Assembly (NCBI GenBank): GCA_012026975.1
Contig: VEPG01000090.1
Span: 1-63,890 of the forward strand
Direction of reading: 5' to 3'
Length of the DNA: 63,890 bases
Origin: Desulfuromonas sp.
GTDB taxonomy: Bacteria; Desulfobacterota; Desulfuromonadia; Desulfuromonadales; BM103
The notes beneath the pieces were generated by a model, which worked only from the letters and a program-made list of their open reading frames with translations, searched no databases and was not told the origin of the DNA. A program made the translations under genes and the position numbers. Each line of letters begins with the position of its first letter. Position 1 is the first letter of the stretch. This document shows positions 11,236 through 55,387 of the stretch, in pieces.

Positions 11236-11734
11236 TTTACGACGAGCAAATAGGCTAATAACCGATTTTGCAGATGGTTTTGCAATAGACTGGTTTATGC
11301 AGGTGAAGGAATGTTTTAAAAGTGAATTGGATATTAAATACACACCAAGGGTTAAAAACAAGATAGTCAGTTATGAATGGACACAAGGGACTTACTACAG
11401 TTTCTCAACAGGCCAAATTATTTATGATAGCAAATTTGCATATGACAGCTGGCGCACTGGATTAGAAAAAATCAACTACGCTTGCCAAATAATAGAAGCC
11501 AAGCCAGATCAACCTATAGCTCAACAAAAAAATAGTAATACAACTAAAGATATAAAGATAAACGGATATGTGAAGTTTATACTATACAAATGCAATAGCA
11601 ATGACAACAAGCTTGATGCTATTGCCTGTTATAATGTCTCACAAACTGAGTTTGTGAACTTTTTAAAAAATGGGGTCATCGGCAATGAAAACTTTAAAAT
11701 TCGCGATCACATCGGCCAGTTGCAATTGCTATGA
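11222..11734 (+). CDS. Hypothetical protein in AT-rich segment
   Basis: A 170-residue protein (MEKINLRRANRLITDFADGF) that I do not recognise. It has no signal peptide or membrane segment and is moderately basic, with many aromatic residues in the middle (YEWTQGTYYSFSTGQIIYDSK). Its ATG overlaps the last four codons of ligA in another frame and its 3' end overlaps the SWIM gene by 50 bp, so the three genes probably share one transcript. Composition is as AT-rich as the ligA body, so it likely arrived with it. The long 3' overlap leaves open a frameshift joining it to the next gene, but the SWIM gene makes a sensible complete protein on its own. Confidence 0.6.
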   Translation: MEKINLRRANRLITDFADGFAIDWFMQVKECFKSELDIKYTPRVKNKIVSYEWTQGTYYSFSTGQIIYDSKFAYDSWRTGLEKINYACQIIEAKPDQPIAQQKNSNTTKDIKINGYVKFILYKCNSNDNKLDAIACYNVSQTEFVNFLKNGVIGNENFKIRDHIGQLQLL

Positions 11735-12017
11735 AATTACATTTAAGAAAAAGGACCAAGGAATCACCTCAAGCTGCACTTGTGCTGCTGGAGAGCATGG
11801 TCAGTTGTGCAAACATCGCCTTGAAATACTACATGGCGACATCTCATCCATCACAAGCGGGAACGAGAGCGAAGCAGCCATTGTGTTGTCTTGGCTAGAA
11901 GGGACCATGGTAGCCGAAGCGCTAAAACAAGTTTCCGAAGCTGAGGTGAGTTACGAAACGGCGAAGAAAAAACTTTTCTCAGCGAAAAGAAATTTATCAA
12001 GGTTGTTAAATGGCTAA
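11685..12017 (+). CDS. Small SWIM-type zinc-finger protein
   Basis: The 110-residue protein carries a SWIM motif, SCTCAAGEHGQLCKHRLEIL (about residues 29-48), with the CxC...CxH zinc ligands. After it comes a helical, Ala/Lys-rich tail (EVSYETAKKKLFSAKRNLSRLL) that could form a coiled coil. SWIM fingers are found in DNA- or protein-binding factors such as SWI2/SNF2 partners and MuDR transposases; stand-alone versions of this size have no firm function. I prefer the internal ATG at 11685 (MKTLKFAITSASCNCYEI) over 11670 because it opens directly into the beta-strand-like domain. It overlaps the previous ORF by 50 bp and acyP by 8 bp. Composition is foreign. Confidence 0.7.
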   Translation: MKTLKFAITSASCNCYEITFKKKDQGITSSCTCAAGEHGQLCKHRLEILHGDISSITSGNESEAAIVLSWLEGTMVAEALKQVSEAEVSYETAKKKLFSAKRNLSRLLNG

Positions 12018-20944: not shown

Positions 20945-21073
20945 TTGCATAAATGCAAAACGCCTTCTCGAAACCTGTCACCTCCCGCAACATGCCAATC
21001 TAAAGTATGTTTTTTGCGCAGCACCATATCACTTCCACGCCAACCGGCTCACGTTTTTTGCAATAATGCAAAA
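20945..21073. promoter_or_regulatory. Two TTGCA-N4-TGCAA palindromes, candidate activator sites
   Basis: Site A (20945-20958) reads TTGCA-TAAA-TGCAA. Site B (21054-21073) reads TTTTTTGCA-ATAA-TGCAAAA. Their centres are about 222 and 109 bp upstream of the -12 GC of the sigma-54 promoter at 21159-21173, the distance range of NtrC-type enhancer sites. The rest of the 20811-21158 gap is AT-rich and shows no gene. Confidence 0.7.
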
Positions 21074-21158
21074 GACCTGTGTCGGCCTGATGGTGGAGCA
21101 AAATCCCAAGTAACCGAAACTAAAGATATAAATTTCATGTCCGAATATTTTAAAACAT

Positions 21159-21173
21159 TGGTATAGCCTTTGC
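21159..21173 (+). promoter_or_regulatory. Sigma-54 (-24/-12) promoter for the alpha/beta-hydrolase-like gene
   Basis: TGGTATAGCCTTTGC has the GG and GC elements with exact sigma-54 spacing (TGG, four variable bases, TTGC). The transcript would begin near 21185, about 30 nt before the ATG at 21215. Confidence 0.75.
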
Positions 21174-21214: not shown

Positions 21215-21808
21215 ATGACTGCACATATCCAGGGGAATGACCTTCATTTCGACCAGGGCGGCACGGGACCGACGGTCCTCTTCCTCCACGACGACCCGGC
21301 AAAACAGGCGGCCCTGTTCCGGGATTGCTCCCCCCTGGTCGCGTCGAATCTGCGGGTGGTGGTCTCGTTGATTGCGGCTGACAGCGGCAGCCATCAGGTC
21401 GTCGCCTTGCTGAAGCAGCTCGGCATCGGCCGCGCCGTGGTCATCGCCATCGGCCAGGCCAACCACACCCTGATCGATCTGCTTGAACAGCACCCGGACC
21501 GGGTTGCGGCAGCCAGTTTCGTGGCCGACAAAGCTCTGGCCAGGGAACTGCGCAACCGCACCGACAATCCGCATATCCATGCGCTGCTCCGCAGCGGCCG
21601 CCAGGCGAGCGTCGCCAAGGCGGTGGCCCGAACCCGCAAACCCGCATCGGCCTACGGCGCGGTTCAGGCGTGGTCCACGCGCCTGGTCGACAGCTGTCGC
21701 GCCGGCATCAAAAACTGCGCGGGGCTACTCGCCCGCCTCGAACTCCCCGGCCTGATCCAGCTCGACGACGGCGAAGATGACGAGGAAATCGTGGCCGAGA
21801 CCCTGTAA
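21215..21808 (+). CDS. Alpha/beta-hydrolase-like protein lacking the catalytic nucleophile
   Basis: The 197-residue protein follows the alpha/beta-hydrolase plan: NDLHFDQGGTGPTVLFLHDDP at the N-terminus, then LLKQLGIGRAVVIAIGQANH, where family members have the GxSxG nucleophile elbow. Here the elbow reads AIGQANH, so the serine is missing, the oxyanion HG is HD, and no clear C-terminal catalytic His is seen. It looks like a pseudoenzyme, perhaps a ligand-binding or regulatory protein. I start at ATG 21215 (MTAHIQGND), with AAAGGA upstream, because the sigma-54 start lies after an earlier in-frame ATG at 21170. A strong terminator follows. Function unknown. Confidence 0.75.
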   Translation: MTAHIQGNDLHFDQGGTGPTVLFLHDDPAKQAALFRDCSPLVASNLRVVVSLIAADSGSHQVVALLKQLGIGRAVVIAIGQANHTLIDLLEQHPDRVAAASFVADKALARELRNRTDNPHIHALLRSGRQASVAKAVARTRKPASAYGAVQAWSTRLVDSCRAGIKNCAGLLARLELPGLIQLDDGEDDEEIVAETL

Positions 21809-41387: not shown

Positions 41388-43349
41388 ATGAGCCGGCACC
41401 TGTTCCGATTCGTCAATAACCTGCAGATCCGCTGGAAGCTGCTAGTGGTCGTCCTGCCGCTGGTGCTCATTCCGCTGTTTGTGGTCGGCTCGGTCGTCGG
41501 CTGGATCGCCTACCGCCAGGCACAGCTCGGCATTACCCAGGCAAGCATGGCCGACCTCGACCATCTTGCCTATTTTACCGTTGACCTGTTCGATTCCCAT
41601 CGCCGCCAGTTCGAGGTCTACCGCGAAGACAAGAAGCAGACCATCCAGAAGGAACTGGCCACGCTTTCCAACCTTGCCTACAACCTGGTCGAAAATCAGT
41701 ACCGCCAGCAGCAGGCGGGGCTGATCTACCAGGACAGCGCCCAGGATGTCGCCCGCCGGACCCTGAAACGGGTTCAGGTCGGCGAGACCGGTTATATCTA
41801 TGCCATGACCACCCGCGGCGACCTGAAGGTACACATCGCCCGCGAGGGGGAGAATGTCTACGACCAGCGCGCCGAAGACGGCCAGTACTTCATTCGGGCC
41901 ATGTGCCAGGCGGCCAAGACCGCGGCCCCCGGGCAGGTGCTCACCATCATCTACCCGTGGCGCAACCCGGAACTCGACGTCAAAGCCCGCCCGAAAATGG
42001 TAGCTTACCGTTACTTTGCCCCGTGGGACTGGATCGTCGCCGCCGGCAGCTACATTGATGAAACCTATGACGACCCGGCCGTCGAAGCCAAGGCCTTTGC
42101 CGCGCTGAAAGAACGACTCAAGGCAAAGAAGGTCGGGAAGACCGGCTACATCTATGCCATGGACCGCAAGGGGACGCTGACCATTCACCCCGAGGCGGAA
42201 GGCCATAACATCTACGCTTCCCGTGACAGCGACGGCACCCCATTCATTCAGCAGATGTGCGAACAGCGCGAAGGATGGATCCACTACCCCTGGCAGAATC
42301 CCGGAGAAGCCAGTCCGCGGCGCAAAATCGTGCGCTACCTGTATTACAAACCGTGGGACTGGATCGTGGCGGTCGGTTCCTACGAAGACGAGTTCTACCA
42401 CGAAACCAACCTGATCAAGGGACGCATCTTCAAAAGCCTCGGCTGGATCTCCCTCGGCGTCGGCCTGCTCGCCACCCTGCTGGTGTTTCTGGCCGCCAAG
42501 GTACTGTCCGACCCGCTGCGGCATATGACAGCGACGATCCGCGCCATCAAGCGCGGACAGACCAATCGGCAGATGCAAGTCGACAGCCGCGACGAGCTCG
42601 GCGAATTGGCCACCGCCTTCAACCGCATGACCAGCATCCTGCAGCGCAACCGCGAACTTGAGGCCAACCTCGCCCAGCAGGGGAAAATGGCTTCCCTCGG
42701 GGTGCTCTCTTCGGGGGTGGCGCACGAAATCAACAACCCGCTCGGGGTTATCCTTGGCTACGCCGCCTACCTGGAGAAGAAACTTGCCGAGGACGATCCC
42801 AACTACCACTACATCCATGAGATCAAGCGCGAGAGCAAGCGCTGCAAGAAGATTGTTCAGGATCTGCTCAGCTACGCGCGCACGCCGCAGCCGGAACTGG
42901 CGCCGACCGACCTCAACCATCTGCTCGGCCAGATCGTCGACTTTGCCGCCAATCACACCGACCTGTTCGGCGTGAAGATCATCCGCGATTTCGATCCGGA
43001 GCTGCCGCCGGCACCGATTGACGGCGACCAGATCCGCCAGGTGGCGATCAACCTGATTCTCAACGCCGGCTCGGCAATGAACGGCAAAGGGGTCCTCACC
43101 GTAAGCACATCCCGTGAGGAGGGCTTCGCCGTGCTGACCGTTGCCGACACCGGCTGCGGCATCACGGAAGAAGATCTCTCACGTATCTTCGAACCATTCT
43201 TCACCACCAAGGAACGTGGTACCGGCCTCGGCCTGGCCATTACCAAGCAGCTGATCGAACTCCATCATGGAACGATCCGCATTGCCAGTTCCCCTGGCGA
43301 GGGGACGACAGTGACCGTCCGGTTGCCGCTGACCAGAGAGGACCTCTGA
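41388..43349 (+). CDS. Double-Cache membrane sensor histidine kinase, partner of the NtrC-type regulator
   Basis: A 653-residue inner-membrane kinase. One membrane segment (about 18-42) leads into two successive sCache_2-type sensor modules, each with the text TGYIYAM followed about 70-90 residues later by PWDWIVA(A/V)GSY (about 138-235 and 247-340). A second membrane segment (about 351-375), a HAMP linker, HisKA with H446 (SSGVAHEINNPLGVI) and HATPase (NLILNAGSAM, DTGCGI, GTGLGLA) follow. sCache_2 domains of known ligand bind small carboxylates such as acetate and propionate. The stop overlaps the regulator's start (TGATG). I infer a short-chain acid sensor. Confidence 0.92.
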   Translation: MSRHLFRFVNNLQIRWKLLVVVLPLVLIPLFVVGSVVGWIAYRQAQLGITQASMADLDHLAYFTVDLFDSHRRQFEVYREDKKQTIQKELATLSNLAYNLVENQYRQQQAGLIYQDSAQDVARRTLKRVQVGETGYIYAMTTRGDLKVHIAREGENVYDQRAEDGQYFIRAMCQAAKTAAPGQVLTIIYPWRNPELDVKARPKMVAYRYFAPWDWIVAAGSYIDETYDDPAVEAKAFAALKERLKAKKVGKTGYIYAMDRKGTLTIHPEAEGHNIYASRDSDGTPFIQQMCEQREGWIHYPWQNPGEASPRRKIVRYLYYKPWDWIVAVGSYEDEFYHETNLIKGRIFKSLGWISLGVGLLATLLVFLAAKVLSDPLRHMTATIRAIKRGQTNRQMQVDSRDELGELATAFNRMTSILQRNRELEANLAQQGKMASLGVLSSGVAHEINNPLGVILGYAAYLEKKLAEDDPNYHYIHEIKRESKRCKKIVQDLLSYARTPQPELAPTDLNHLLGQIVDFAANHTDLFGVKIIRDFDPELPPAPIDGDQIRQVAINLILNAGSAMNGKGVLTVSTSREEGFAVLTVADTGCGITEEDLSRIFEPFFTTKERGTGLGLAITKQLIELHHGTIRIASSPGEGTTVTVRLPLTREDL

Positions 43350-44716
43350 TGCCTGCTGCCCGTCTCATGCTGATCGACAACGAGGCCGGCCTTTGCCGAA
43401 TGATGGAGGCCGTGCTGCGCGACCAGGGCTACCTGGTCAAGACTTATACCAACCCGGTGCAGGCGGTGGCCGATTTCACCGCCGGAAGTTTCGACCTGGC
43501 GGTCACCGACATCAAGATGCCGGAAATGGATGGCCTGGAGGTGCTCCAGCACCTGCGCCGGCGCGACCCCGAGATTCCGGTGATCATGATCACCGCCTTC
43601 GCCACCGTGGAGATGTCGATCCAGGCCCTGCGGCGCGGCGCCTACGACATGCTGACCAAGCCGTTCGAACCGGATGAACTGATCTACCGGGTGAAGAATG
43701 CCCTGCAGCACCACGCCCTGGTCGAGGAGAACCGTGAACTGAAGGAGGAACTGACCGGAAAGTTTCGCTTCGACCGGATCATCGGCGCTTCGGCAGGGAT
43801 TCAGACCCTCCTGGAGAGGGTCGCCAAAGTGGCGGTGCGCGACACCGGCGTGCTGATCACCGGCGAATCGGGAACCGGCAAGGAACTGATCGCCCAGGCC
43901 ATTCACCACAACTCGGCACGGCGCGATCGCAAGTTTGTCGCCGTCAACTGCGGGGCCCTTCCCGAGAACATTCTCGAGAGCGAACTGTTCGGCTACCGCA
44001 AGGGGGCTTTTACCGGCGCCACCGAGAACCGCCAGGGCCTGCTCGAAGCCGCCGACGGCGGCACCCTGTTTCTCGACGAAGTTGGCAACCTGCCGCTCAA
44101 CGTGCAGAAAACCTTGCTGCGCTTCCTGCAGGAGCAGGAGTTCCGGCGCCTGGGAGATACCAATCCGACCAAGGTCGACGTCCGCCTGATCTCGGCCACG
44201 AATTCCGACCTGACCGCCGAAGTCGTCAAAGGAACGTTCCGCGAAGATCTGTTCTACCGGCTCAACGTCATCAATCTGCATCTGCCGCCGCTGCGCGAGC
44301 GACGGGATGACATTCCGCTGCTGGTGGCACATTTCATCCGCGAGCAGAACGACAAGTTCGGCACCTCGTGCAAAGGGCTGACCCCCGAGGCGATGGAGGC
44401 GGCCTGTTCGTACAGTTGGCCGGGAAATATCCGTCAATTGCGTAATGTGATCGAGGCGGCGATGACCATCGAGAGCGGTGCATATCTCGGCCTGCCGGTT
44501 CTTTCTCAGTTTATCGTCACCGACCAGACCGGACCCTTGCCCTCCCAGGCCGACTACGAAGCCGCCTTGACCCGTTTTGAAACCGAATATCTCACCCGAC
44601 TGCTGCGCAAACATGGCGGCAATGTCGAAGCGGCATCCGCCGAGGCCGGCATGAACATGGCGACCATTTATCGCAAGCTGAAAAAATACGGGATCCGCAA
44701 GAAGGATGTGGACTAG
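43349..44716 (+). CDS. NtrC-family sigma-54 response regulator
   Basis: The 455-residue protein has a receiver domain with phospho-acceptor D54 (LAVTDIKMPE), an AAA+ domain with Walker A GESGTGKE, the sigma-54 contact loop GAFTGA and Walker B LFLDEV, and a C-terminal Fis-type helix-turn-helix (NVEAASAEAGMNMATIYRKL). All motifs for activating sigma-54 RNA polymerase are intact. It is coupled to the kinase by a one-base overlap. Seventeen bases after its stop begins the palindrome cluster of the next gene, whose sigma-54 promoter is the most obvious target. Confidence 0.96.
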   Translation: MPAARLMLIDNEAGLCRMMEAVLRDQGYLVKTYTNPVQAVADFTAGSFDLAVTDIKMPEMDGLEVLQHLRRRDPEIPVIMITAFATVEMSIQALRRGAYDMLTKPFEPDELIYRVKNALQHHALVEENRELKEELTGKFRFDRIIGASAGIQTLLERVAKVAVRDTGVLITGESGTGKELIAQAIHHNSARRDRKFVAVNCGALPENILESELFGYRKGAFTGATENRQGLLEAADGGTLFLDEVGNLPLNVQKTLLRFLQEQEFRRLGDTNPTKVDVRLISATNSDLTAEVVKGTFREDLFYRLNVINLHLPPLRERRDDIPLLVAHFIREQNDKFGTSCKGLTPEAMEAACSYSWPGNIRQLRNVIEAAMTIESGAYLGLPVLSQFIVTDQTGPLPSQADYEAALTRFETEYLTRLLRKHGGNVEAASAEAGMNMATIYRKLKKYGIRKKDVD

Positions 44717-44732: not shown

Positions 44733-44899
44733 TTGCAGGAATGCGAATTGCGGTTTTGCATTTCTGCAAGAATGCAAATTTACCGAAAATTTCACATAAC
44801 TATTTGTTATCAAATGATTTTATAAAGATACATGGTATTCTGCTCCTGTCTCTGCAGCTTGCGCTTTTCCTTTCCCGCCGGTTTTTTGCATTTCTGCAA
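44733..44899. promoter_or_regulatory. Cluster of TTGCA-N4-TGCAA palindromes upstream of the acetate-permease-like gene
   Basis: The first copy (44733-44746) is TTGCA-GGAA-TGCGA with one mismatch. The second (44754-44778) is a chain of three half sites, TTTTGCA-TTTC-TGCA-AGAA-TGCAAA. The third (44883-44899) is TTTTTTGCA-TTTC-TGCAA. The last two centre about 250 and 122 bp upstream of the -12 GC at 45013-45014. The remaining bases of the 44717-45103 gap are AT-rich and hold no gene. Confidence 0.8.
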
Positions 44900-44999
44900 G
44901 TCTAAATCGTCCAACCAATCCGCAGCCATAACCGCATAAATTTTATAAGCACCTGTTATTATTGGTTTTTATAATTTAAGAGCGACTTCGTCTCTTGAT

Positions 45000-45014
45000 T
45001 GGTACGGCGCTTGC
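45000..45014 (+). promoter_or_regulatory. Sigma-54 (-24/-12) promoter for the acetate-permease-like gene
   Basis: TGGTACGGCGCTTGC has TGG and TTGC with exact sigma-54 spacing, followed by T. The transcript would start near 45025, giving a leader of about 79 nt. Confidence 0.8.
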
Positions 45015-45103: not shown

Positions 45104-45901
45104 ATGAACAACCGGACTGTTTGCCCATATTACGGCTGCGACGAAGAAGTCTGCGATGTCGGCTGCGGCTACATCTCGCCGCACGATGCCAAGATGATCA
45201 TCAAGTTTTGCTCGGCCCAGTATAATGATTGCCACAAGTACCATGAACTGGCCGATCGCCTTGGCGAGCAGATGCCGGTCGCGGCGAGCATCTCGGCCAC
45301 CTGGATTGAACCTGCCCAGAGCGATCCACGCGCAACCCATGTCCCGGCGCTTGGACTCTTCTGCTTTGGCATCACCGCCGTCCTGTTTGCCTTCAAACAG
45401 CTCCCGGTACCGCAACCCGACATTTACCTTCTCAGTCTGATGATGATCGCCGCCTCGCTCGGCCAGATCATCACCGGCCTGACCGCCCTGCGCATCAACC
45501 CCATGCGCGCCGTGGCCTTTACCGGTTTCGGCCTGTTCTGGCTGTCACTGCTGGCTGTCGAACTGCTGCCGACCGCCGGTTACGGCAAACTCCCCGGTCC
45601 GCTGCCGCAGGGAGGCTATTTCGCCATGTGGGGGGTGTTCAGCCTGATCCTCGTCCAGAACTCCGGCAGCCTCAACCGTAGCTGCCAACTGGTGTTTTCC
45701 CTGCTTGCGCCGTTTCTTCTGATGTTGGCCCTGTCCCACATTACCGGCAGCGTGGCCCTGAAACATACGGCGGCGGTTCTCGGTTTTGCCTGCAGCCTGC
45801 CGGCGCTGTTATGCGGCGTGCGTCAGAGTTGGCAGGAACTGCGCGACCTGCTGACCCCCGGCCGCACCCAACAGGCCCACCAGGCCCAGCGGATTCGCTG
45901 A
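45104..45901 (+). CDS. GPR1/FUN34/YaaH (acetate permease)-like protein with Cys-rich N-terminus
   Basis: The 265-residue protein has an unusual soluble N-terminal module of about 55 residues with six cysteines (C7, C12, C17, C21, C36, C43; CPYYGCDEEVCDVGCGYISP). About six membrane segments of the acetate-transporter family follow (LGLFCFGITAVLFAF, SLGQIITGLTALR, FTGFGLFWLSLLAV). YaaH/SatP relatives carry acetate or succinate with protons. The Cys-rich part may bind metal or act as a redox switch. It has a GGAGG ribosome site and is driven by a sigma-54 promoter with upstream palindromes next to the sensor pair, pointing to carboxylate-induced uptake. Family call moderate. Confidence 0.75.
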   Translation: MNNRTVCPYYGCDEEVCDVGCGYISPHDAKMIIKFCSAQYNDCHKYHELADRLGEQMPVAASISATWIEPAQSDPRATHVPALGLFCFGITAVLFAFKQLPVPQPDIYLLSLMMIAASLGQIITGLTALRINPMRAVAFTGFGLFWLSLLAVELLPTAGYGKLPGPLPQGGYFAMWGVFSLILVQNSGSLNRSCQLVFSLLAPFLLMLALSHITGSVALKHTAAVLGFACSLPALLCGVRQSWQELRDLLTPGRTQQAHQAQRIR

Positions 45902-46013: not shown

Positions 46014-46400
46014 ATGAACGCGAAACTCAGCCTGCAAATGACACTGCTCGGACTCGGCGTCATGGTTTTTTACGCCGGGCTGATCGTTACCGGCCAGGTG
46101 TCGATGGAGATTCTTCCGCATTATGCCATCTCCGCGGTCATTTTCCTCTGCTCGGGAAGGATCATGCGGCAAATGGCCGCAAAGCTCCCGCCCCGCGAGG
46201 AGGGAGCGCCGGTTCCTTTCCGGTTGATCCCCGACTGGTCGATGCGCACGGCCATGCTCAACTGGGTGGCCGCCAGCGTTCTGGTCAGCATCATGGCGGT
46301 TTTCCTGGTCAAGCCTGACGGCATGACCTTCACCGAGATGCTGCAGTTCACCGCCGCCGGCATGGATGAAATGCCAACGCCGCCATTGCCGATGCCCTGA
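46014..46400 (+). CDS. Hypothetical 128-residue membrane protein
   Basis: Three hydrophobic stretches are visible: LSLQMTLLGLGVMVFYAGLIVTG, ILPHYAISAVIFLCSG and MLNWVAASVLVSIMAVFLV. A charged, Pro-rich loop lies between the second and third, and the tail is Pro/Met-rich. I recognise no family. It has its own sigma-70 promoter and a bidirectional terminator after it, so it is a single-gene unit between the acetate-permease-like gene and a convergent sensor kinase. Confidence 0.7.
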   Translation: MNAKLSLQMTLLGLGVMVFYAGLIVTGQVSMEILPHYAISAVIFLCSGRIMRQMAAKLPPREEGAPVPFRLIPDWSMRTAMLNWVAASVLVSIMAVFLVKPDGMTFTEMLQFTAAGMDEMPTPPLPMP

Positions 46401-46493: not shown

Positions 46494-48266
46494 TCAATCC
46501 GTTGCCTGCACCGGCAGGAGCACCGTCACCGTGGTGCCCCGGCCGAGGGCACTGGCCATGCGCACCTCACCGTGATGGGCCTCGATGATCGACCTGGCAA
46601 TGAACAAGCCCAGACCGGTGCCAGCAGGCGCCTTACTGGTCACATTCGCGCGATAGAACTTGTCGAACACGTGGGCGAGTTGTTCGGGCGACATGCCGAC
46701 CCCCTCGTCGCGAATGATGATGCCACAGCGATCTCCGACAATGTTGGCACTGACATGGACGGAGCTCCCAGCGCCGGAATATTTGACGGCATTGCTGAGA
46801 AAATTCTCGATCGCCTGGGGGAGCCGTTTGCAGTCGGCCTGAATCTCCAGCGGCACGGCGGACGGTTCGAAATGAAAATGATGCGTCGCCACGCGCTTGC
46901 GGAAGCCGTCGACAACTTCCGCGAGCAATCCGGAAACATCGCATTTCTCCCTCTCGACGGTCATTTTCCGGCCGCTTTCCAGACGCGCCAGCTCGAGCAG
47001 TTCATCGACCATTTGCGAGAGGGTTTCCGCCTTGCGAATTATTGTCTTCAGCGCCTCCGCACGGTCATTTTCCTCAAGCGCGTTGGCCTGCAGCATTTCA
47101 CCAAAACCCAGAATGGCCGCCAGCGGCGTCTGGAACTCGTGAGCCACCGTGGAAACAAATTCGCTTTTCATGCGGCTGGCCTCACGCTGCGGACTCACAT
47201 CATGCATGACGCCGATAATCCCCGCCGGCTGGCCGTCCTCGTCACGGAACAACGTCTTGTGGAAGACGATATCATGCCGTTTGCCATCGACACCGGTCAC
47301 GGCATGTTCGTAGACGACGGAACGCTCCTCCCGCAGGGCTTCAGCATCCTTGCTCCGGTGCAGACTGGCGTCTTCCGGGGGATAGAGTTCCGCGGCGCTG
47401 CGACCGACAATCTCGCCGACGCCTTTCCCCCAGAAATCAGCGAACGCCCGGTTGCAGCCGAGCATCTTCCCCCCGGCATCCTTGTAGAAGACCGGCACCG
47501 GCAGATCATCCATCAGTACCTGGAGGAAATTCACCTGGGCCGCCAGACGCTTCTCTACCTGATGTACGTCGGTGGTCATCTGGTTGAAGGCATCGTTGAG
47601 CGCGCCGATCTCGTCGCGACGGTCGACCGGGAGTTGCAGGTCGCGACGCCCCTTGGACATGCCGTTGATCGCTCGCGTCAGGAGGGTAAGCGGGCGGGCA
47701 ATGGCCTGGGCCGCCGGCAGGGTCAGAGCAAAGGCAAGGATGCCGATCAGCAGGATGCCCACGAGGATTTCCCGAATGAGCGTGTTGACCGCCGTGTTGA
47801 TCGGCTCGGCCGAGATACCGATCCGCAAACTGCCGATGCGGCCGTCAAGCACCGGCACGGCAATGTCATAGATGAACTCACTACCGGTATCCAGACGCTT
47901 GACGACGGCTTCCTCGCCGCCGACGTAACGGTTCACCGTTGTCAGTTCGGCAGGGAAGTTCGTGCCGAACGAGTGGGCGAGCAACCCGCCGTCACGATCG
48001 ACCATCAAAATGTAGCGGATGTCAGCTTCCGCGGTTTGGTGTTCGTGAGCAAGGTATTGGAGGTGCAGATGGTTGTGTTCGATGAAATCTTCGGTGCTAA
48101 GCTCGGCAATGTGCCGGGCGATCGAGATTCCGCGTTTAAGCAGTTCGTTGCTGAGATCGCTGGACACGCGGGCGGCCACATAGAAACCGATGGCCGCACC
48201 GAAACAGACCACGACCGAAAGGGTCAGGGCAAGCAGCTTGAAACGCAACGGGAGATTGACGCCCAT
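46494..48266 (-). CDS. PAS-domain sensor histidine kinase paired with a PhnD-like lipoprotein
   Basis: A 590-residue membrane kinase with a first membrane segment (LLALTLSVVVCFGAAIGFYVAA), a periplasmic sensor of about 130 residues, a second segment (LVGILLIGILAFALTLPAAQA), HAMP, PAS (LMDDLPVPVFYKDAGGKMLG), HisKA with H376 (TVAHEFQTPLAAI) and HATPase (ENFLSNAVKYS, DEGVGM, GTGLGLFIA). It starts 5 bp after the binding-protein gene, so the two form an operon. This suggests that the lipoprotein presents a ligand to the kinase. No regulator gene is beside it. Confidence 0.9.
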   Translation of the reverse strand: MGVNLPLRFKLLALTLSVVVCFGAAIGFYVAARVSSDLSNELLKRGISIARHIAELSTEDFIEHNHLHLQYLAHEHQTAEADIRYILMVDRDGGLLAHSFGTNFPAELTTVNRYVGGEEAVVKRLDTGSEFIYDIAVPVLDGRIGSLRIGISAEPINTAVNTLIREILVGILLIGILAFALTLPAAQAIARPLTLLTRAINGMSKGRRDLQLPVDRRDEIGALNDAFNQMTTDVHQVEKRLAAQVNFLQVLMDDLPVPVFYKDAGGKMLGCNRAFADFWGKGVGEIVGRSAAELYPPEDASLHRSKDAEALREERSVVYEHAVTGVDGKRHDIVFHKTLFRDEDGQPAGIIGVMHDVSPQREASRMKSEFVSTVAHEFQTPLAAILGFGEMLQANALEENDRAEALKTIIRKAETLSQMVDELLELARLESGRKMTVEREKCDVSGLLAEVVDGFRKRVATHHFHFEPSAVPLEIQADCKRLPQAIENFLSNAVKYSGAGSSVHVSANIVGDRCGIIIRDEGVGMSPEQLAHVFDKFYRANVTSKAPAGTGLGLFIARSIIEAHHGEVRMASALGRGTTVTVLLPVQATD

Positions 48267-48271
48267 AAGGG

Positions 48272-49207
48272 TCAGCGATGGCTTTTGCTGTTGATGAAGT
48301 CGCGCATCTCGCGAATCGTCCCATAGGCGGCATCACTTGCCGGCACGAAGCGGCGGAGCATCATTCCCTGCAGGATCAGGGACCCTTCGGGATCCTCATG
48401 CATGGACAGCAGCGTCGTGCGCAAACGTTCACGCAACGGGGCCGGGATATTGGGACGCACCACCACGGGGGGAATGCCATAGGGGGCGGAGCGGGACAGG
48501 ATCCTGATTTTCTTGGCCAACTGCGGATCCTTGCGGATCAGGTACTCGTAGATCAGGCTGTCCACCGCGGCCCCGTCGACTTCCCCCTCGGCCACTGCGC
48601 GGATCGACTTGTCGTGGGCGGAGGTATAGATGACCATGCCAAAAAAGTGCTCCGCAGTCTCCCCCCGCTGTGCCAGCATGTATTCCGGCACCAGCTTGCC
48701 GCTGTTCGACAACGGATCGGTAAAGGCGAAGTTCCGGCCGCGCAGATCCTCGAGACTCTTCGCCGGGCTCTTGACCGGGACGATCATGTACGAATAGTAG
48801 ACCGTCTCTCCGGAGAGGGTTTCCGGCATGACCAACAGTTCCAGACCAAAGTTGTCCTTCCCCTCGACGTAGGGCCCGCCGCAGACAAAGGCCAGATCCA
48901 GTTCACCATCCTTGAGCAGCTGATTGAACTCTTGGTAGCTCCCCCGGTCGACGGTCATGACCGGGGTGGTCAGGTGCTTCTCGAGGTATTCCACCAGCCG
49001 TTGGTAGTAGATGTAGCCTTCCTTGGGGGTAATCATCGAACCGATGCCGAGGGTGATCTGCGTCGGGGCTGCCACGGGTTTTGCGATGGTCGAGGAAGAC
49101 GTGCGCTTGTCGAGATCGACCCGGACCGCCTCGCCACCTTCATTGCAGGCAAGCAGGCCAAACAGCAGGACCATCGCAACAGGGATTCTGGCAAGAAATA
49201 CAGGCAT
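48272..49207 (-). CDS. PhnD-type substrate-binding lipoprotein
   Basis: The 311-residue protein has a signal peptide ending in a lipobox (VAMVLLFGLLAC), then a periplasmic-binding-protein fold of the PhnD/phosphate-phosphonate group: LGIGSMITPKEGYIYYQRLVEYL, GELDLAFVCGGPYV, DLRGRNFAFTDPLSNSG and AEGEVDGAAVDSLIYEYL. It lacks ABC permease and ATPase genes nearby and is followed at 5 bp by a sensor kinase. It probably serves sensing rather than transport. PhnD-type proteins bind oxyanions such as phosphonate, phosphite or phosphate; the ligand here is unknown. Confidence 0.88.
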   Translation of the reverse strand: MPVFLARIPVAMVLLFGLLACNEGGEAVRVDLDKRTSSSTIAKPVAAPTQITLGIGSMITPKEGYIYYQRLVEYLEKHLTTPVMTVDRGSYQEFNQLLKDGELDLAFVCGGPYVEGKDNFGLELLVMPETLSGETVYYSYMIVPVKSPAKSLEDLRGRNFAFTDPLSNSGKLVPEYMLAQRGETAEHFFGMVIYTSAHDKSIRAVAEGEVDGAAVDSLIYEYLIRKDPQLAKKIRILSRSAPYGIPPVVVRPNIPAPLRERLRTTLLSMHEDPEGSLILQGMMLRRFVPASDAAYGTIREMRDFINSKSHR

Positions 49208-49751: not shown

Positions 49752-50306
49752 TCAGGCGGCGACCTGCCGTTCGTAGCGGGCAACCATCTCCTGATACCTG
49801 ATCTCGAGTCCCGGGGTTGCGGCTGCCGCCTGTCGGTAGGCGGTCAGCATATCGGCGCGCACTTCCTGCGGCAGGATCCGCTCGGCAAGCGGGTAGAGAA
49901 TGTGATCTTCCTTGTCGATATGGCTGCGCAGCAGCTGCGCGTAGCCTTTGGCATGCGCGGCGAGCACGGGAATTTCCCCGACAGCGCCGGCCAGCGCCTG
50001 CCGTGCCGCGATCTCCAGAGCGCGCACATGCGCCCGCCCCTGCTCATGCTCGATCTGCATCGCTTCGATCGGCGACTGCTTGGCCGGCATACCGTTATTT
50101 ACCAGGGCCTTGAAGAGCACATCCTCCTCCTTGGCATGATGGAAACGGTCAGCATAGTTACGAATAAAGTCTACGGCATCGAGAAAAAACCGCCAGTCGC
50201 GGAATTTTCCCTGCTCCAGCAGGGCGGTGTTCTGCTCCACCAGTGTGATCATGCGCAGGATCAGCTGGTGCTCATCCATCATGACCCGGGTCACGTCGGT
50301 TTTCAT
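49752..50306 (-). CDS. Hemerythrin HHE-domain protein
   Basis: A 184-residue cytosolic protein with the hemerythrin-type di-iron four-helix fold. The ligand pattern is visible as MMDEHQLILRM, NYADRFHHAKEEDVLFKAL, QIEHEQGRAHV and RSHIDKEDHILYPLAE. Such proteins bind O2 or NO or take part in repair of Fe-S clusters (YtfE/ScdA-like). It follows the Fe-S protein gene by one base in the same operon behind an FNR-type promoter, fitting nitrosative or oxidative stress defence in an anaerobe. Confidence 0.93.
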   Translation of the reverse strand: MKTDVTRVMMDEHQLILRMITLVEQNTALLEQGKFRDWRFFLDAVDFIRNYADRFHHAKEEDVLFKALVNNGMPAKQSPIEAMQIEHEQGRAHVRALEIAARQALAGAVGEIPVLAAHAKGYAQLLRSHIDKEDHILYPLAERILPQEVRADMLTAYRQAAAATPGLEIRYQEMVARYERQVAA

Positions 50307-50307
50307 G

Positions 50308-50766
50308 TCAGCTTCTCCTCTCGCCGTTGATGCCGATTACCGCAATCTCCAGCGCCACATCCCTCCCCGAGCGCTTGATGGCCTCCTGAGCCAGCATGGC
50401 CAGACCACGGCAGCAGGGCACTTCCATAATGGTGACCGTAACCGAACGGATCTCGTTCTGGGCAATGATCGCGGCAAGCTTGTCCACGTAGGGGCTGGTG
50501 TCATCCAGCTTGGGGCAGGCATTGACCAACACGCGCCCCTTGATGAAATCGCGGTGAAACTCGGCATAGGCGAAGGGCACGCAGTCCGCGGCGATCAGCA
50601 GGTCGGCATTCTGCAGATATGGTGCGGAGGGCGGCACCAGGTGCAACTGGGTCGGCCACTGGCGCAGTTCCGAGGTCAGGCGACCGGATGGCGCGGCGGA
50701 TTCATTGGCGGGACGTTCCACGGTACGGGCTTGGGCGCCGGGGCAGCCACAGGCAAATGTGCTCAT
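50308..50766 (-). CDS. Putative Fe-S/redox protein
   Basis: A 152-residue protein with cysteines at the N-terminus (ACGCPGAQ) and later (ADCVPF, NACPKLDD, VPCCRGL), in the arrangement seen in small iron-sulfur-associated proteins that accompany DUF1858/hemerythrin genes. The central part QNADLLIAADCVPFAYAEFHRDFIKGRVLVNACPKLDD is the conserved core, here given in pieces. Its role is unknown; electron transfer or Fe-S handling is the best guess. It overlaps the DUF1858 gene by 4 bp and is followed by the hemerythrin gene. Confidence 0.75.
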   Translation of the reverse strand: MSTFACGCPGAQARTVERPANESAAPSGRLTSELRQWPTQLHLVPPSAPYLQNADLLIAADCVPFAYAEFHRDFIKGRVLVNACPKLDDTSPYVDKLAAIIAQNEIRSVTVTIMEVPCCRGLAMLAQEAIKRSGRDVALEIAVIGINGERRS

Positions 50767-51011
50767 GATTTTTCTCCTTCCGGTTGGTTGATGTTATCGG
50801 TACGGGACAGGTAGCTGATAATTTCCGCTTCAATTTTCTGCTCGATCTCTTCACCCAGGGCGTGGATGGAAACGACGTCCTTCACCAGACAGATGCCGAC
50901 GCCGCACGTCACGCAGCCGAAGTCGTACATGCCGAGGATTTCTCCGATTGCCGGGTGCTGCTCGATCACCCGGTTGATCGCCTGGTCACCAATTTCCCGA
51001 GGCAGTTTCAT
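50763..51011 (-). CDS. DUF1858 (hybrid-cluster-associated disulfide-type) protein
   Basis: The 82-residue protein matches DUF1858: INRVIEQHPAIGEILGMYDFGCVTCGVGICLVKDVVSIHAL, with the conserved CxxC (C33/C36 region, GCVTCG) that in family names is called a hybrid-cluster-associated redox disulfide. It leads a four-gene minus-strand operon (DUF1858, Fe-S protein, hemerythrin, PAS). The promoter upstream has an FNR/HcpR-like dyad at -41.5, so induction under low oxygen or NO is expected. Confidence 0.88.
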   Translation of the reverse strand: MKLPREIGDQAINRVIEQHPAIGEILGMYDFGCVTCGVGICLVKDVVSIHALGEEIEQKIEAEIISYLSRTDNINQPEGEKS

Positions 51012-51089: not shown

Positions 51090-51298
51090 AATATCTGACT
51101 GTATTGATAAATTATTTATCGTCGTGGCGCTCCGTCTCTCCCGGAGGCAGTAACATGCATGCTCCGCGAATTTTATTGACGTCCTGTCCGGCAGGAAATA
51201 TCCTTAAAAAAATCTCACGCAAAATGCTCTGCGCCGTCAAACTGTCCGTCCCCGCCGAAACGCTTGTACAAGGATCGATCCGCCAGGAGGTCACAACC

Positions 51299-53473
51299 AT
51301 GCAGATAAAAATGAAAATCGCCGGTTTGGTACTGGTCCTCGTCCTGTTTACGGCACTCTCCATTGTCGGCATCGCGCTCCTCCAAAAAACGGTTCTCGGC
51401 AAGGACCTCGGCAGGGAAATCGATCGCCTGGCTGTCGACGAAGCCGGCCAAACGGCCCAGGATGTCTATCTGATGTGCGAGGCGATGCGCGAATCGGTCG
51501 AACAGTCGGTCGGCTACAGTCTCAAGATTGCCGACGACATCCTCAAACGGACCGGCGTCGTCTCCTTCAGCAAGGAAATGGTTGCCTGGACCGCTACCAA
51601 TCAATTCAACAATGAGCGCCGTGCCGTCGCCCTTAACAAGATGATGGTCGGCAGCCAGTGGCTCGGCCAGAACTCCGACGCCAAGGTGTCAAGCCCGGTG
51701 GTCGATGAAGTCAAGCGCCTGGCCGGGAGCACCTGCACCATCTTCCAGCGGATGAACGAGGATGGCGACATGCTGCGGGTATCAACCAACGTCGAGAAAC
51801 TCGACGGCACCCGCGCCATCGGCACCTACATCCCCCGCCTCAACCCCGATGGCAAACCCAATCCCGTGATCGCCAGCGTCCTCCGCGGCGAAACCTTCAA
51901 GGGCCGCGCCTTCGTGGTGAACGCCTGGTATGTCACTGCCTACCAGCCGATCTGGAACCAGTCCCGCAGCCGGGTGGAAGGGGTTCTTTATGTCGGCATC
52001 AAGCAGGAGAACGTCGAGAGTCTGCGCAAGGGGATCATGGACATCGTCGTCGGCAAGACCGGGCGGGTTTTCGTGCTGGGGGGGACCGGCGACCAGAAAG
52101 GCCGCTTCCTCGTCGCTCCGCGGGGGACCGAACTGGAGCTGCAGGCCGCGGCGAATCAGGATCATATCCAGGAGATTGTCGCCAAGGCCCTGGCGCTGAA
52201 AAGCGAGGGGGAATCGATCCCCGTCGAGACGGTACGCTATGCCGCCGCCGGGGGCAAGGGAGGCGATTCCGGAGACCGGTTTGCAGTCTTCACCTATTTC
52301 AAGCCGTGGGACTGGATCATTGTCGCCGACTTCCCTGAAGCGGACTTCATGGATTCGCGCACCCTCGTCGCCAGTGGTCTGAACAATATGATCGGCTGGA
52401 TTCTGCTGATTGCCGCCGTCGTCACCTGCCTGGCCCTGTTCTTCGGCTATCTGCTCGCCAGAGGGATCAGCACCCCCCTTCGCCAGACGGTTGACATGCT
52501 CGAGGGGATGGGCCGCGGCGAACTTGACCGACGCCTCAATCTCCAAGGGAAGGACGAAGTCGGCCGACTGGCCGTTGCCATGGACGCCTTCGCCGACAAC
52601 CTGCAAAGTGAAATTCTCACGGCTTTCAAAAAACTTGCCGAAGGGGATTTCACCTTTAAGGCCACCGGCCTGATCCGCGAGCCGCTGGCCCAGTCAAACG
52701 AGCGACTGACCCAACTGGTCGGTCACATTCGGGGTGCCAGCGAGCAGGTCGCCGAGAAGAGCCAGGCCGTCAGCGATAATGCCACCCGGCAATCGCGGGG
52801 AGCGATCGAACAGGCTTCGAGCGTTGAGGAGGTTTCCTCAAGCATCGTCGAGATGACCGCCAATATTCGTCGGAATACCGAAAATGCGTTGGAAACCGAG
52901 AAGATTGCCGTCAAGGCCGCGGTCGATGCCCGGGAAGGCGGCGCGGCCATGAATGAAACGATCCGGGCCCTGGAGGAAATTTCCAAGAAGATCGGGATCA
53001 TCAACGAAATTGCCCGGCAGACCAATCTGCTGGCATTGACCGCCTCCCTCGAAGCCGCCCGGGCCGGGGAGCACGGCAAGGGTTATGCCGAGGTGGCCGG
53101 TGAGGTGCGCAAGCTTGCCGAGCGGAGCCAGGCCGCGGCCCAGGACATCAACGCTCTGTCGGTCAACAGCATCGATGTCGCCGCCAAAACGGCCAATGTG
53201 CTCGGCATCATGGTGCCAAACATCCAGCGCACCGCCGAACTGGTGCAGGAAATTGCCGCCGCCAGCCGGGAGCAGGACACCGGCGCCGAACAGATCAGCA
53301 ACGCCATGCAACAGCTTGACCTGGTGATTCAACACAACGCCGCCTTTGCCGAGGAGATGGCCGGCACGGCCGAGGAACTGTCCGCGCAGGCCGAGCAGTT
53401 GCAGGCCGTGATTGCAGCACTCAAAACCTCGGCACAGGATCAGCTCTCCTTTGTTGCGCAGGAAGAGCGTTAA
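51299..53473 (+). CDS. Methyl-accepting chemotaxis protein with Cache sensor
   Basis: The 724-residue chemoreceptor starts at ATG 51299 behind AGGAGG; the open frame upstream is not used. A membrane segment ([22 protein letters not shown]) is followed by a long periplasmic Cache region (about 35-360, Cache_3/Cache_2-like: [40 protein letters not shown]). Then come a second membrane segment ([21 protein letters not shown]), HAMP and the signalling domain with the hairpin [20 protein letters not shown]. No methylesterase-binding pentapeptide is seen at the C-terminus. The PWDWI motif also appears in the Cache modules of the kinase at 41388. Confidence 0.93.
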
Positions 53474-53579: not shown

Positions 53580-54887
53580 TCACTCGGCCTTGACCGACTC
53601 CAGAACCAATTCTTCTTCCAGTGCGACCGGCACGGAGGCGGTCTTCTCGGCGGCCTTGGGACGCAGCGAGTTGGCCAGCATTGCACCGATCATCAGCAGT
53701 ACGCCGGCGACCACGAACGACATGGTGAAGTTGCCGGTTTTGGCCTTCAGGATCTCGGCAACCTTGACCAGCGCGAAGGCGCCGACGCCCCAGGCGGTGA
53801 AGAGCACGCCGTAGTTCATTCCGTAGTTCTTGACCCCCCAGAGATCCTTGGCAAAGGAGGGGAAGAGCGACAGATTGGTGCCGTAGTTGAAGACCATGAA
53901 GGTGACCATGAGGACCAGCACCAGGGCGTTGGAGTAGGTGCCGTCGACCACCGGGATGGCAGCGAACATCAGGGCGGCCTGGAAGACCAGCATGATCACC
54001 AGGGTGTTGGCGCGGCCAATCTTGTCGGAGACCACGCCGGCGATGATCCGGCCGGCGGCGTTACCGATCGACATGACCGCGACGACCAGGAAGGCCCATT
54101 CGCCAAGGCTGGCCTTGGCCATGCCGGTGGCGCTGCCGATGACCATCAGGCCGGCGCCGGCGCCGATGAAGAAGCAAACCCACAGGGTGTAGAAGCTGCC
54201 GGTTTTCAGGATTTGCGAAGGGGTCTTGTCTTCCACCGCCGACTTCTTGGCGACCGCCTTGGCGTTCGGATCGGCCACATAGCCGGCCGGTGGGTTGCTC
54301 AGCAGCATGCCGAAGGCGCAGACGATGATGCCAAAGGCGATGCCGAGGATCAGCATCGACTGCAGAATCCCGAACGATTTCAGCAGATAGTTAGAGAGCG
54401 GGGCAATGTAGACCGGGGCCAGACCGAAGCCGGAGACGACGATCCCGGCGATCAGGCCGGTCTTGGCCGGCGGGAACCAGCGCAGCGCCGGCGGGGTGGC
54501 GGCGGAGTAGCCGAAACCCATCCCCAGACCGACCAGCACGCCGAAGCCGACGATCCACATCCAGTAGTTGGTGCTCGTCGAAGCGACCAGAAAGCCGCTG
54601 GCGACAAACAGGCCGCCGATGATGCAGGTGGCGCGGGGGCCGATCTTGTCCTGCATGCGCCCGGCGATGATCATCGAGAAGGCGAAGGCCAGACAGGCCA
54701 GGGCATAGGGGTCGTTGACCGATGCCTTGTCCCAGGTGAAGGCCCCTTCACCACCAGCCTTGATCGAATCGGTGATCGCACCCTTGAAGATGCTCCAGGC
54801 GTACAGAACGCCCAGCGCCAGATTGATGGCCGTGCCGGAGAGGGCCACGGTCCAGCCGCGACGATAGGAAATACTGGTCGTGCTCAT
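53580..54887 (-). CDS. OFA-family MFS transporter
   Basis: The 435-residue protein has 12 predicted membrane segments of the major facilitator fold, with OFA (oxalate/formate antiporter) landmarks: GWTVALSGTAINLALGVLYAWSIFKG at the N-terminus, GFGYSAATPPALRWFPPAKTGLIAGIVVSGFG, and AAGRIIAGVVSDKIGR in the second half. Known family members move oxalate, formate, lactate or other monocarboxylates. I start at ATG 54887 (MSTTSISYRRG) with AGGAGG upstream; the ATGA overlaps the stop of a short leader ORF. Expression is inferred from a sigma-54 promoter with three palindromic upstream sites. Confidence 0.92.
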   Translation of the reverse strand: MSTTSISYRRGWTVALSGTAINLALGVLYAWSIFKGAITDSIKAGGEGAFTWDKASVNDPYALACLAFAFSMIIAGRMQDKIGPRATCIIGGLFVASGFLVASTSTNYWMWIVGFGVLVGLGMGFGYSAATPPALRWFPPAKTGLIAGIVVSGFGLAPVYIAPLSNYLLKSFGILQSMLILGIAFGIIVCAFGMLLSNPPAGYVADPNAKAVAKKSAVEDKTPSQILKTGSFYTLWVCFFIGAGAGLMVIGSATGMAKASLGEWAFLVVAVMSIGNAAGRIIAGVVSDKIGRANTLVIMLVFQAALMFAAIPVVDGTYSNALVLVLMVTFMVFNYGTNLSLFPSFAKDLWGVKNYGMNYGVLFTAWGVGAFALVKVAEILKAKTGNFTMSFVVAGVLLMIGAMLANSLRPKAAEKTASVPVALEEELVLESVKAE

Positions 54888-55087: not shown

Positions 55088-55102
55088 GCAACCGGCATAC
55101 CA
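55088..55102 (-). promoter_or_regulatory. Sigma-54 (-24/-12) promoter for the OFA transporter
   Basis: On the minus strand TGGTATGCCGGTTGC shows TGG and TTGC with exact sigma-54 spacing. The transcript would start near 55076, giving a leader of about 190 nt that includes the short ORF. Confidence 0.75.
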
Positions 55103-55198
55103 ATGTTCTAGCTTTTGCAGAAATATTTTTTTATCAATAATTTCAATTGCTTAAAAAGGAATAGCAGAAGGATTGACTGGAGGATGATGAAGGGCTGA

Positions 55199-55387
55199 TT
55201 TGCATAAATGCAAAACAGGAGACAGGACAAGAACCTCACGTTCAGTTTCGCTGAATACCGTTCAATTTGGATAAACCCGCTTTGGTAGCGAATTTACGAG
55301 GCACGGCCCAGGGCCCTGTCGGCGTTTCGGCGAACGGATTTGCACCGATGCAACCTTTAACAAAGCTTTTTGCAGGAATGCAAAAAA
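55199..55387. promoter_or_regulatory. Three TTGCA-N4-TGCAA palindromes upstream of the OFA promoter
   Basis: The sites are TTTGCA-TAAA-TGCAAAA (55199-55215), TTTGCA-CCGA-TGCAA (55339-55353) and TTTTTGCA-GGAA-TGCAAAAAAA (55367-55387). The nearest centres about 118 bp from the -12 GC. The distal pair centres lie 30 bp apart, three helical turns. The last one shares its A-tract with the efpL terminator. The rest of the 54888-55565 gap shows no gene apart from the leader ORF. Confidence 0.8.

Follow-up and report, generated by a model that had tools for sequence, protein, structure and literature searches.

A candidate sigma-54 regulon for small-monocarboxylate transport, marked by palindrome pairs, in Desulfuromonas and related sediment bacteria

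The organization of a 63,890-nt stretch of Desulfuromonas sp. DNA (GCA_012026975.1, contig VEPG01000090.1; referred to as the window) indicates that a two-component system next to paired TTGCA-N4-TGCAA palindromes very probably switches the transport of small acids in this group of sediment bacteria. Its sensor has two intact acetate/pyruvate-type pockets, and in dozens of relatives the palindromes recur at the promoters of one small set of genes, chiefly those for an acetate channel and a lactate-type transporter. The circuit that we consider likely is a sigma-54 regulon for small monocarboxylates, in which a double-Cache kinase acts through an NtrC-type regulator and palindrome pairs on carriers and a hydrolase-like protein. 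The kinase (41388-43349) would bind acetate, pyruvate or, less likely, another C2/C3 acid on its periplasmic side and phosphorylate the NtrC-type regulator (43349-44716). This protein would then bind the palindrome pairs, whose near site is placed some 112 bp upstream of the -24 box and whose far site, single or double, lies at around 210-290 bp. An IHF-like bend midway would bring the bound regulator into contact with RNA polymerase-sigma-54 at the -24/-12 box, where it would open the promoter and thus activate rather than repress. Three genes are the predicted targets, one for a SatP-type acetate channel that bears a Cys-rich domain, one for a carrier of the OFA/lactate type and one for an alpha/beta-hydrolase-like protein.

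Exact palindromes were found in the window at starts 20945, 21058, 44756, 44886, 55200, 55340 and 55370, and sites with one mismatch at 44733 and 44764. The original prediction had placed palindromes and -24/-12 promoters ahead of three genes starting at 21215, 45104 and 54887, and the sites, boxes and spacings were all recovered. At 45104 (target 1), the promoter TGGTACGGCGCTTGC (45000..45014, + strand) is preceded by an exact proximal palindrome (44886..44899), whose start lies 114 bp from the TGG of the promoter, and by an overlapping distal cluster that had not been noticed before. This cluster comprises TTGCAGGAATGCGA (44733..44746), which has one mismatch, is located 267 bp from the TGG and is conserved in two loci of the same genus (L075 and L076), the exact site TTGCATTTCTGCAA (44756..44769) at 244 bp, which was recovered in the pattern counts of window and genome and in the ortholog loci, and the overlapping one-mismatch site CTGCAAGAATGCAA (44764..44777), 31 bp from the 44733 site. 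As predicted, the first palindrome begins 17 bp past the stop of the regulator gene (44716). The pattern search placed the palindromes of 21215 (target 3) at 20945..20958 (distal) and 21058..21071 (proximal), 214 and 101 bp from the TGG of the promoter TGGTATAGCCTTTGC (21159..21173, +). The promoter of 54887 (target 2), TGGTATGCCGGTTGC (55088..55102, -), turned out to have three palindromes instead of two, namely a proximal one (55200..55213), a distal one (55340..55353) and a second distal one 30 bp from the latter (55370..55383), at 111, 251 and 281 bp from the TGG. In the relatives, the median distance from the start of the proximal palindrome to the TGG is 112 bp, and the distal palindromes cluster 210-290 bp before the TGG, often as pairs 29-33 bp apart.

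Between palindromes and promoter a further conserved element was identified de novo. The motif TAAnTnnYTGAAAT was learned on half of the promoters and scored on the held-out half, where it reached 11.5 bits compared to 2.8 in shuffles; in both halves it occurs 53-56 bp upstream of the TGG of the -24 box in some 80-90% of the promoters. Its letters are similar to the consensus for IHF, YAAN4TTGATW. When the E. coli form of that consensus was itself scanned, the signal was weak and the enrichment modest (25/82 promoters at 8/9 or better versus 7.7 in shuffles), and the de novo motif was put in its place. By this motif, IHF-like elements are present at target 1 (TAAGCACCTGTTAT, 44946..44959, +, between enhancer and promoter), target 3 (CAAGTAACCGAAAC, 21107..21120, +) and target 2 (TAAGCAATTGAAAT, 55140..55153, -). 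The predicted promoter layout is that of an enhancer, an IHF-like bend and a promoter. A weaker IHF-like copy occurs between the distal and proximal palindromes of target 1 at 44796-44825, a 70% identical repeat of 44945-44974.

Two of the three targets had been predicted to be carboxylate-type carriers, and both scored above the NCBIfam cut-offs for such families. Target 1 (45104..45901, +) joins a Cys-rich N-terminal domain, about 66 aa long, to an acetate channel of the SatP/AceTr family (AceTr_1, an acetate uptake transporter family; 88.8 bits, cut-off 50). The AlphaFold core of the protein has a pLDDT >90, and its best PDB matches are the SatP structures 5ys3 and 5zug, with TM-scores of 0.79-0.82 by target length and 30% identity. 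The SatP/AceTr family is marked by the signature NPAPLGL. The corresponding region reads VPALGLFCFG in target 1, where the signature is partly kept, and NPAPLGLLGFG in the copy of a relative (L195); because much of the SatP N-terminal signature is lost, the substrate of target 1 is less certain. A small membrane-type ORF of 128 aa (46014..46400, +), which matched no Pfam family, occupies a conserved position after target 1 in most relatives and is likely part of one operon with it. Target 2 (53580..54887, -) is an OFA-family MFS carrier of the L-lactate type (SfMCT, 405.6 bits, cut-off 320). As a point against the proposed regulon, one oxalate-formate antiporter of G. sulfurreducens (GSU2490) was mapped to an RpoD promoter (PMC2725144).

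The region between the two carriers also encodes a hemerythrin-domain protein with ORFs of about 152 aa and 82 aa (49752-51011, -) and a chemoreceptor with a Cache_3-Cache_2 sensor (51104-53473, +), possibly another small-acid sensor. At 46494-49207 (-) a PhnD-like periplasmic binding protein adjoins a PAS/sCache_3 histidine kinase, perhaps as a separate sensing unit. Elsewhere in the window, ligA, which encodes the NAD-dependent DNA ligase, forms together with the two ORFs after it (9145-12017) an island of 33-46% GC within 62% GC; its third-position GC of 0.34, compared to about 0.8, suggests recent acquisition.

Target 3 (21215..21808, +), an alpha/beta-hydrolase-like protein of 197 aa, had been left open in the original prediction and was found to be a conserved regulon member that is not a carrier. 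Its homologs occur under the palindrome module in many genomes, and as relatives repeat the module before an alpha/beta hydrolase, the gene is a regular member and not an outlier. In the alignment the protein carries GQANH where the nucleophile elbow GxSxG is expected, and it also lacks the C-terminal Asp/His region, so that the features of an active alpha/beta hydrolase are missing. Many relatives keep GxSxG; the nucleophile motif was lost in the genus of the window and diverged in others, with degradation in at least two lineages (window 21215-21808 and L279-L281), while the promoter module was retained. A convergent DNA polymerase I gene lies after target 3.

The Cys-rich domain of target 1 (45104-45304) represents a stretch of about 63 aa with five invariant cysteines (C7-x9-C17-DVG-C21-GYI...C36-x6-C43) that had no match in Pfam or NCBIfam and a predicted structure with pLDDT 44-74; a relative's example is found at L165:8013-8201. 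It is fused to SatP here and to OFA in other lineages (L222, L224 and several more genomes), and occurs as a free-standing protein in Geobacter-type genomes, and all three arrangements were found in the palindrome regulon. In the Geobacter-type loci (L184:14341-15390 and neighbours) the palindrome-controlled operon comprises the free Cys-rich protein, an 83-aa ORF and a membrane-type protein of about 349 aa that belongs to no known family. In the Citrifermentans bremense locus (L184) this operon is followed by a DUF485-ActP acetate symporter pair. Direct control of this pair was considered and is not claimed, because no clear palindrome or sigma-54 box precedes it: all palindromes there have at least two mismatches and no sigma-54 box is well placed. 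The Cys-rich domain and the hydrolase-like protein without catalytic residues are the unusual parts of the system. We tentatively suggest, as a possibility rather than an expectation, that the domain is a new carrier-control module gating small-acid transport by metal or redox state and that the hydrolase-like protein works as a non-enzyme.

A scan of relatives for the palindrome together with a sigma-54 promoter, as the original prediction had proposed, led to the gene families of the window again, in many families of the order. A composite module pattern (palindrome, 83-112 bp, -24/-12 box) gave 96 matches in the genomes of 98 relatives compared to none for the reversed pattern. The stretches around module matches outside the ortholog loci were retrieved, yielding 92 unique copies in all, 81 of which are located directly upstream of an OFA, SatP, alpha/beta hydrolase or Cys-rich protein gene. 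One copy precedes a succinyl-CoA:acetate CoA-transferase-like gene (L270, genome G072), which is cut by the contig end, and the other ten appeared chance-like and mostly occurred in kinase-less genomes or coding DNA. In most ortholog loci, and across many families, the palindromes are situated between the regulator and SatP (or the Cys-rich protein in its free-standing form); they also precede OFA, beside elongation factor P, wherever this gene is in range. Outside the order the background of the module was about 0.06 per genome (roughly 17 matching genomes among about 285), most of it chance-like; genomes with the kinase from other orders of the class may contribute genuine matches to it.

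These target families leave the direction of transport to be considered. The same circuit might serve export, overflow or redox balancing, with the kinase sensing accumulating acetate or pyruvate and SatP and OFA releasing the acids. Sequence does not fix the direction, because SatP is a channel and the OFA family includes antiporters, and the carrier-fused Cys-rich domain could report a metal or redox state, as would suit such a role. However, the module precedes an acetate-activating CoA-transferase-like gene in one relative, SfMCT is named as a lactate transporter and the lineage includes acetate oxidisers. Taken together, we regard export as unlikely, if the most serious of the alternatives, and net uptake as the probable outcome of the proposed monocarboxylate circuit.

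The sensor histidine kinase (41388..43349, +) contains a dCache_2 region, HAMP, HisKA and HATPase domains. Two sCache_2-type sensors had been predicted, and Pfam indeed assigned dCache_2 (194.8 bits) with two sCache_2-like stretches (sCache_2, 173.2 bits). The closest PDB sequences are 2qhk/4exo, 4k08 and 5g4y, and the crystals of the nearest sensors with a solved structure contained acetate (4k08), pyruvate (4exo) or propionate (PscD) (PMC3831638, PMC5062169, PMC12415202). The carboxylate pocket is formed, in PscD numbering, by Tyr90, His103, Tyr143, Trp145 and Lys156, and Adeh_3718, PscD, McpP and 4EXO share the contact pattern Y..H..Y-x-W..K (with Phe at one Tyr in 4EXO). Both modules of the kinase have this pocket complete (Y136/H149/Y189/W191/K203 in module 1 and Y254/H267/Y300/W302/K313 in module 2), and its residues were invariant in 22 aligned orthologs and kept in 80/80 named relatives except for one W191G. 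Whereas the sensors listed are single-Cache chemoreceptors, two tandem modules are here placed on a kinase. In sCache_2 sensors for L-lactate, Leu replaces the pocket His (PMC12415202); this His was kept in both modules in 80/80 named relatives, so that the mark of the L-lactate subtype is missing, and acetate or pyruvate is favoured over L-lactate. The earlier assignment to a sensor class that binds small carboxylates was confirmed, and the pocket residues point to C2/C3 carboxylates, with acetate or pyruvate as the most likely ligand. One ortholog of the sensor each was present in 74/98 genomes of the order, and in a named collection it is encoded by at least 161 relatives, including Geobacter, Geomonas, Geotalea, Citrifermentans, Oryzomonas, Desulfuromonas and Desulfuromusa.

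It is conceivable that the same circuit responds to a signal other than a C2/C3 acid, such as another small ligand or an envelope or starvation state, as single residues can change Cache ligands, and in the same study histidine kinase domains were given ligands far less often than chemoreceptors (PMC12415202). The retention of the carboxylate contacts in both modules throughout the 80 named orthologs, one W excepted, and target functions that suit C2/C3 acids make such a signal rather unlikely, somewhat more so than export.

The response regulator (43349..44716, +) is of the NtrC type, with a receiver (Response_reg), a sigma-54 AAA+ domain (Sigma54_activat, 241 bits) with the GAFTGA loop at residue 219 and a Fis-type HTH (HTH_8). 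Among NCBIfam models, those of AtoS/AtoC came closest to the kinase core and the regulator; membership was rejected because the scores are far below the cut-offs (245.8 versus 646 for the kinase and 443.4 versus 714 for the regulator). The recognition helix GMNMATIYRKLK is nearly invariant among orthologs, which keep the string MNMATIYRK; in genomes without the kinase, the most similar NtrC proteins do not have it. The palindrome/promoter module was present in 57/74 genomes with the kinase but only in 4/24 without it (Fisher P 2e-7, a value that is too small because the genomes are related). Seventeen kinase-bearing genomes, with fragmented assemblies or diverged sites, had no exact module match, and one genome scored as kinase-absent (G038) has the regulator at a contig edge. 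OFA homologs occurred in only 2/24 kinase-less genomes, and neither a palindrome nor a σ54 box was found before the OFA genes of these two.

Each genome encodes tens of NtrC-like candidates, and a regulator encoded elsewhere might bind the palindrome, in which case the adjoining two-component pair would be linked to it by gene order only. This appears very unlikely, as the module co-occurs with the kinase, the sites directly follow the regulator gene in most ortholog loci, the recognition helix is conserved, and sites and OFA are lost together where the kinase is absent. These patterns provide strong co-evolution evidence for a pairing of the regulator with the palindromes, to which we infer that it binds.

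The palindromes are closely confined to the three promoters. The window contains nine sites with at most one mismatch where 2.08 +/- 1.70 were expected, and none of 100 shuffles reached nine. The original prediction had noted no other palindrome pair in 64 kb; in the whole 2.83-Mb assembly, all seven exact palindromes are located at the three named σ54 promoters, compared to a single exact match for the reversed pattern. A palindrome equally frequent away from sigma-54 promoters had been named as evidence against the regulon, and every exact site of the genome is found at such a promoter. One-mismatch sites in the rest of the genome correspond to background (55, compared to 46 with the pattern reversed). 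The reversed-pattern controls would allow lone sites about once per genome, but an origin of the palindromes by chance in AT-rich intergenic sequence is refuted by the window shuffles, the genome counts, the module of the relatives, the downstream gene families and the IHF-like element, and a terminator origin was likewise ruled out by genome-wide counts and conservation.

Several described systems are similar in kind. MctS/MctR of Rhizobium likewise pairs a Cache_2 histidine kinase and a response regulator with an adjacent monocarboxylate transporter gene, mctP (PMC9100948). By description, however, this transporter belongs to a different family (MctP), and neither sigma-54 nor NtrC is mentioned for the pair, nor is a palindrome regulon of this kind reported (PMC9100948). 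DVU3023 (LurR-type) of Desulfovibrio vulgaris is described as a sigma-54-dependent NtrC-family response regulator with a conserved binding motif as well, but with different targets, a lactate-pyruvate oxidation operon and lactate permeases, again compared by description (PMC3333781, PMC4641369). CrbS/CrbR (MxtR/ErdR) also exerts two-component control of acetate use, with actP, acs and scpC as studied genes, but CrbS senses through an SLC5/STAC transporter-like domain instead of Cache (PMC9927547, PMC5715377); its targets differ from the regulon described here except for the scpC-like gene in one relative. RpuS/RpuR of Sinorhizobium controls a pyruvate symporter, with RpuS being an SLC5/STAC kinase (PMC9100948). 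The original prediction had called the regulon not obviously described before: in the literature outside subscription journals, the motif string appeared in no paper found and no description of the palindrome regulon was encountered, and the searched passages of a G. sulfurreducens RpoN study name no such regulon. The kind of system is already known from MctSR, LurR and CrbSR, whereas the regulon itself was not found described.

Iron- and sulfur-reducing bacteria of sediments and electrodes have acetate and lactate among their main fuels. In Geobacter, the genes for acetate symporters react when acetate becomes limiting (Risso et al., 2008, cited in PMC13194489), and our literature search found no described regulator. 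The proposed regulon brings together a sensor, a candidate regulator, the DNA word of its sites, the layout of its promoters and a few predicted targets, and its analysis brought to light an uncharacterised Cys-rich domain that is tied to small-acid carriers. As the set of sensor, sites and targets recurs in a large part of the order, named species of Geobacter, Geomonas, Geotalea and Citrifermentans included, the proposed control of small-acid transport can be tested in culturable strains.
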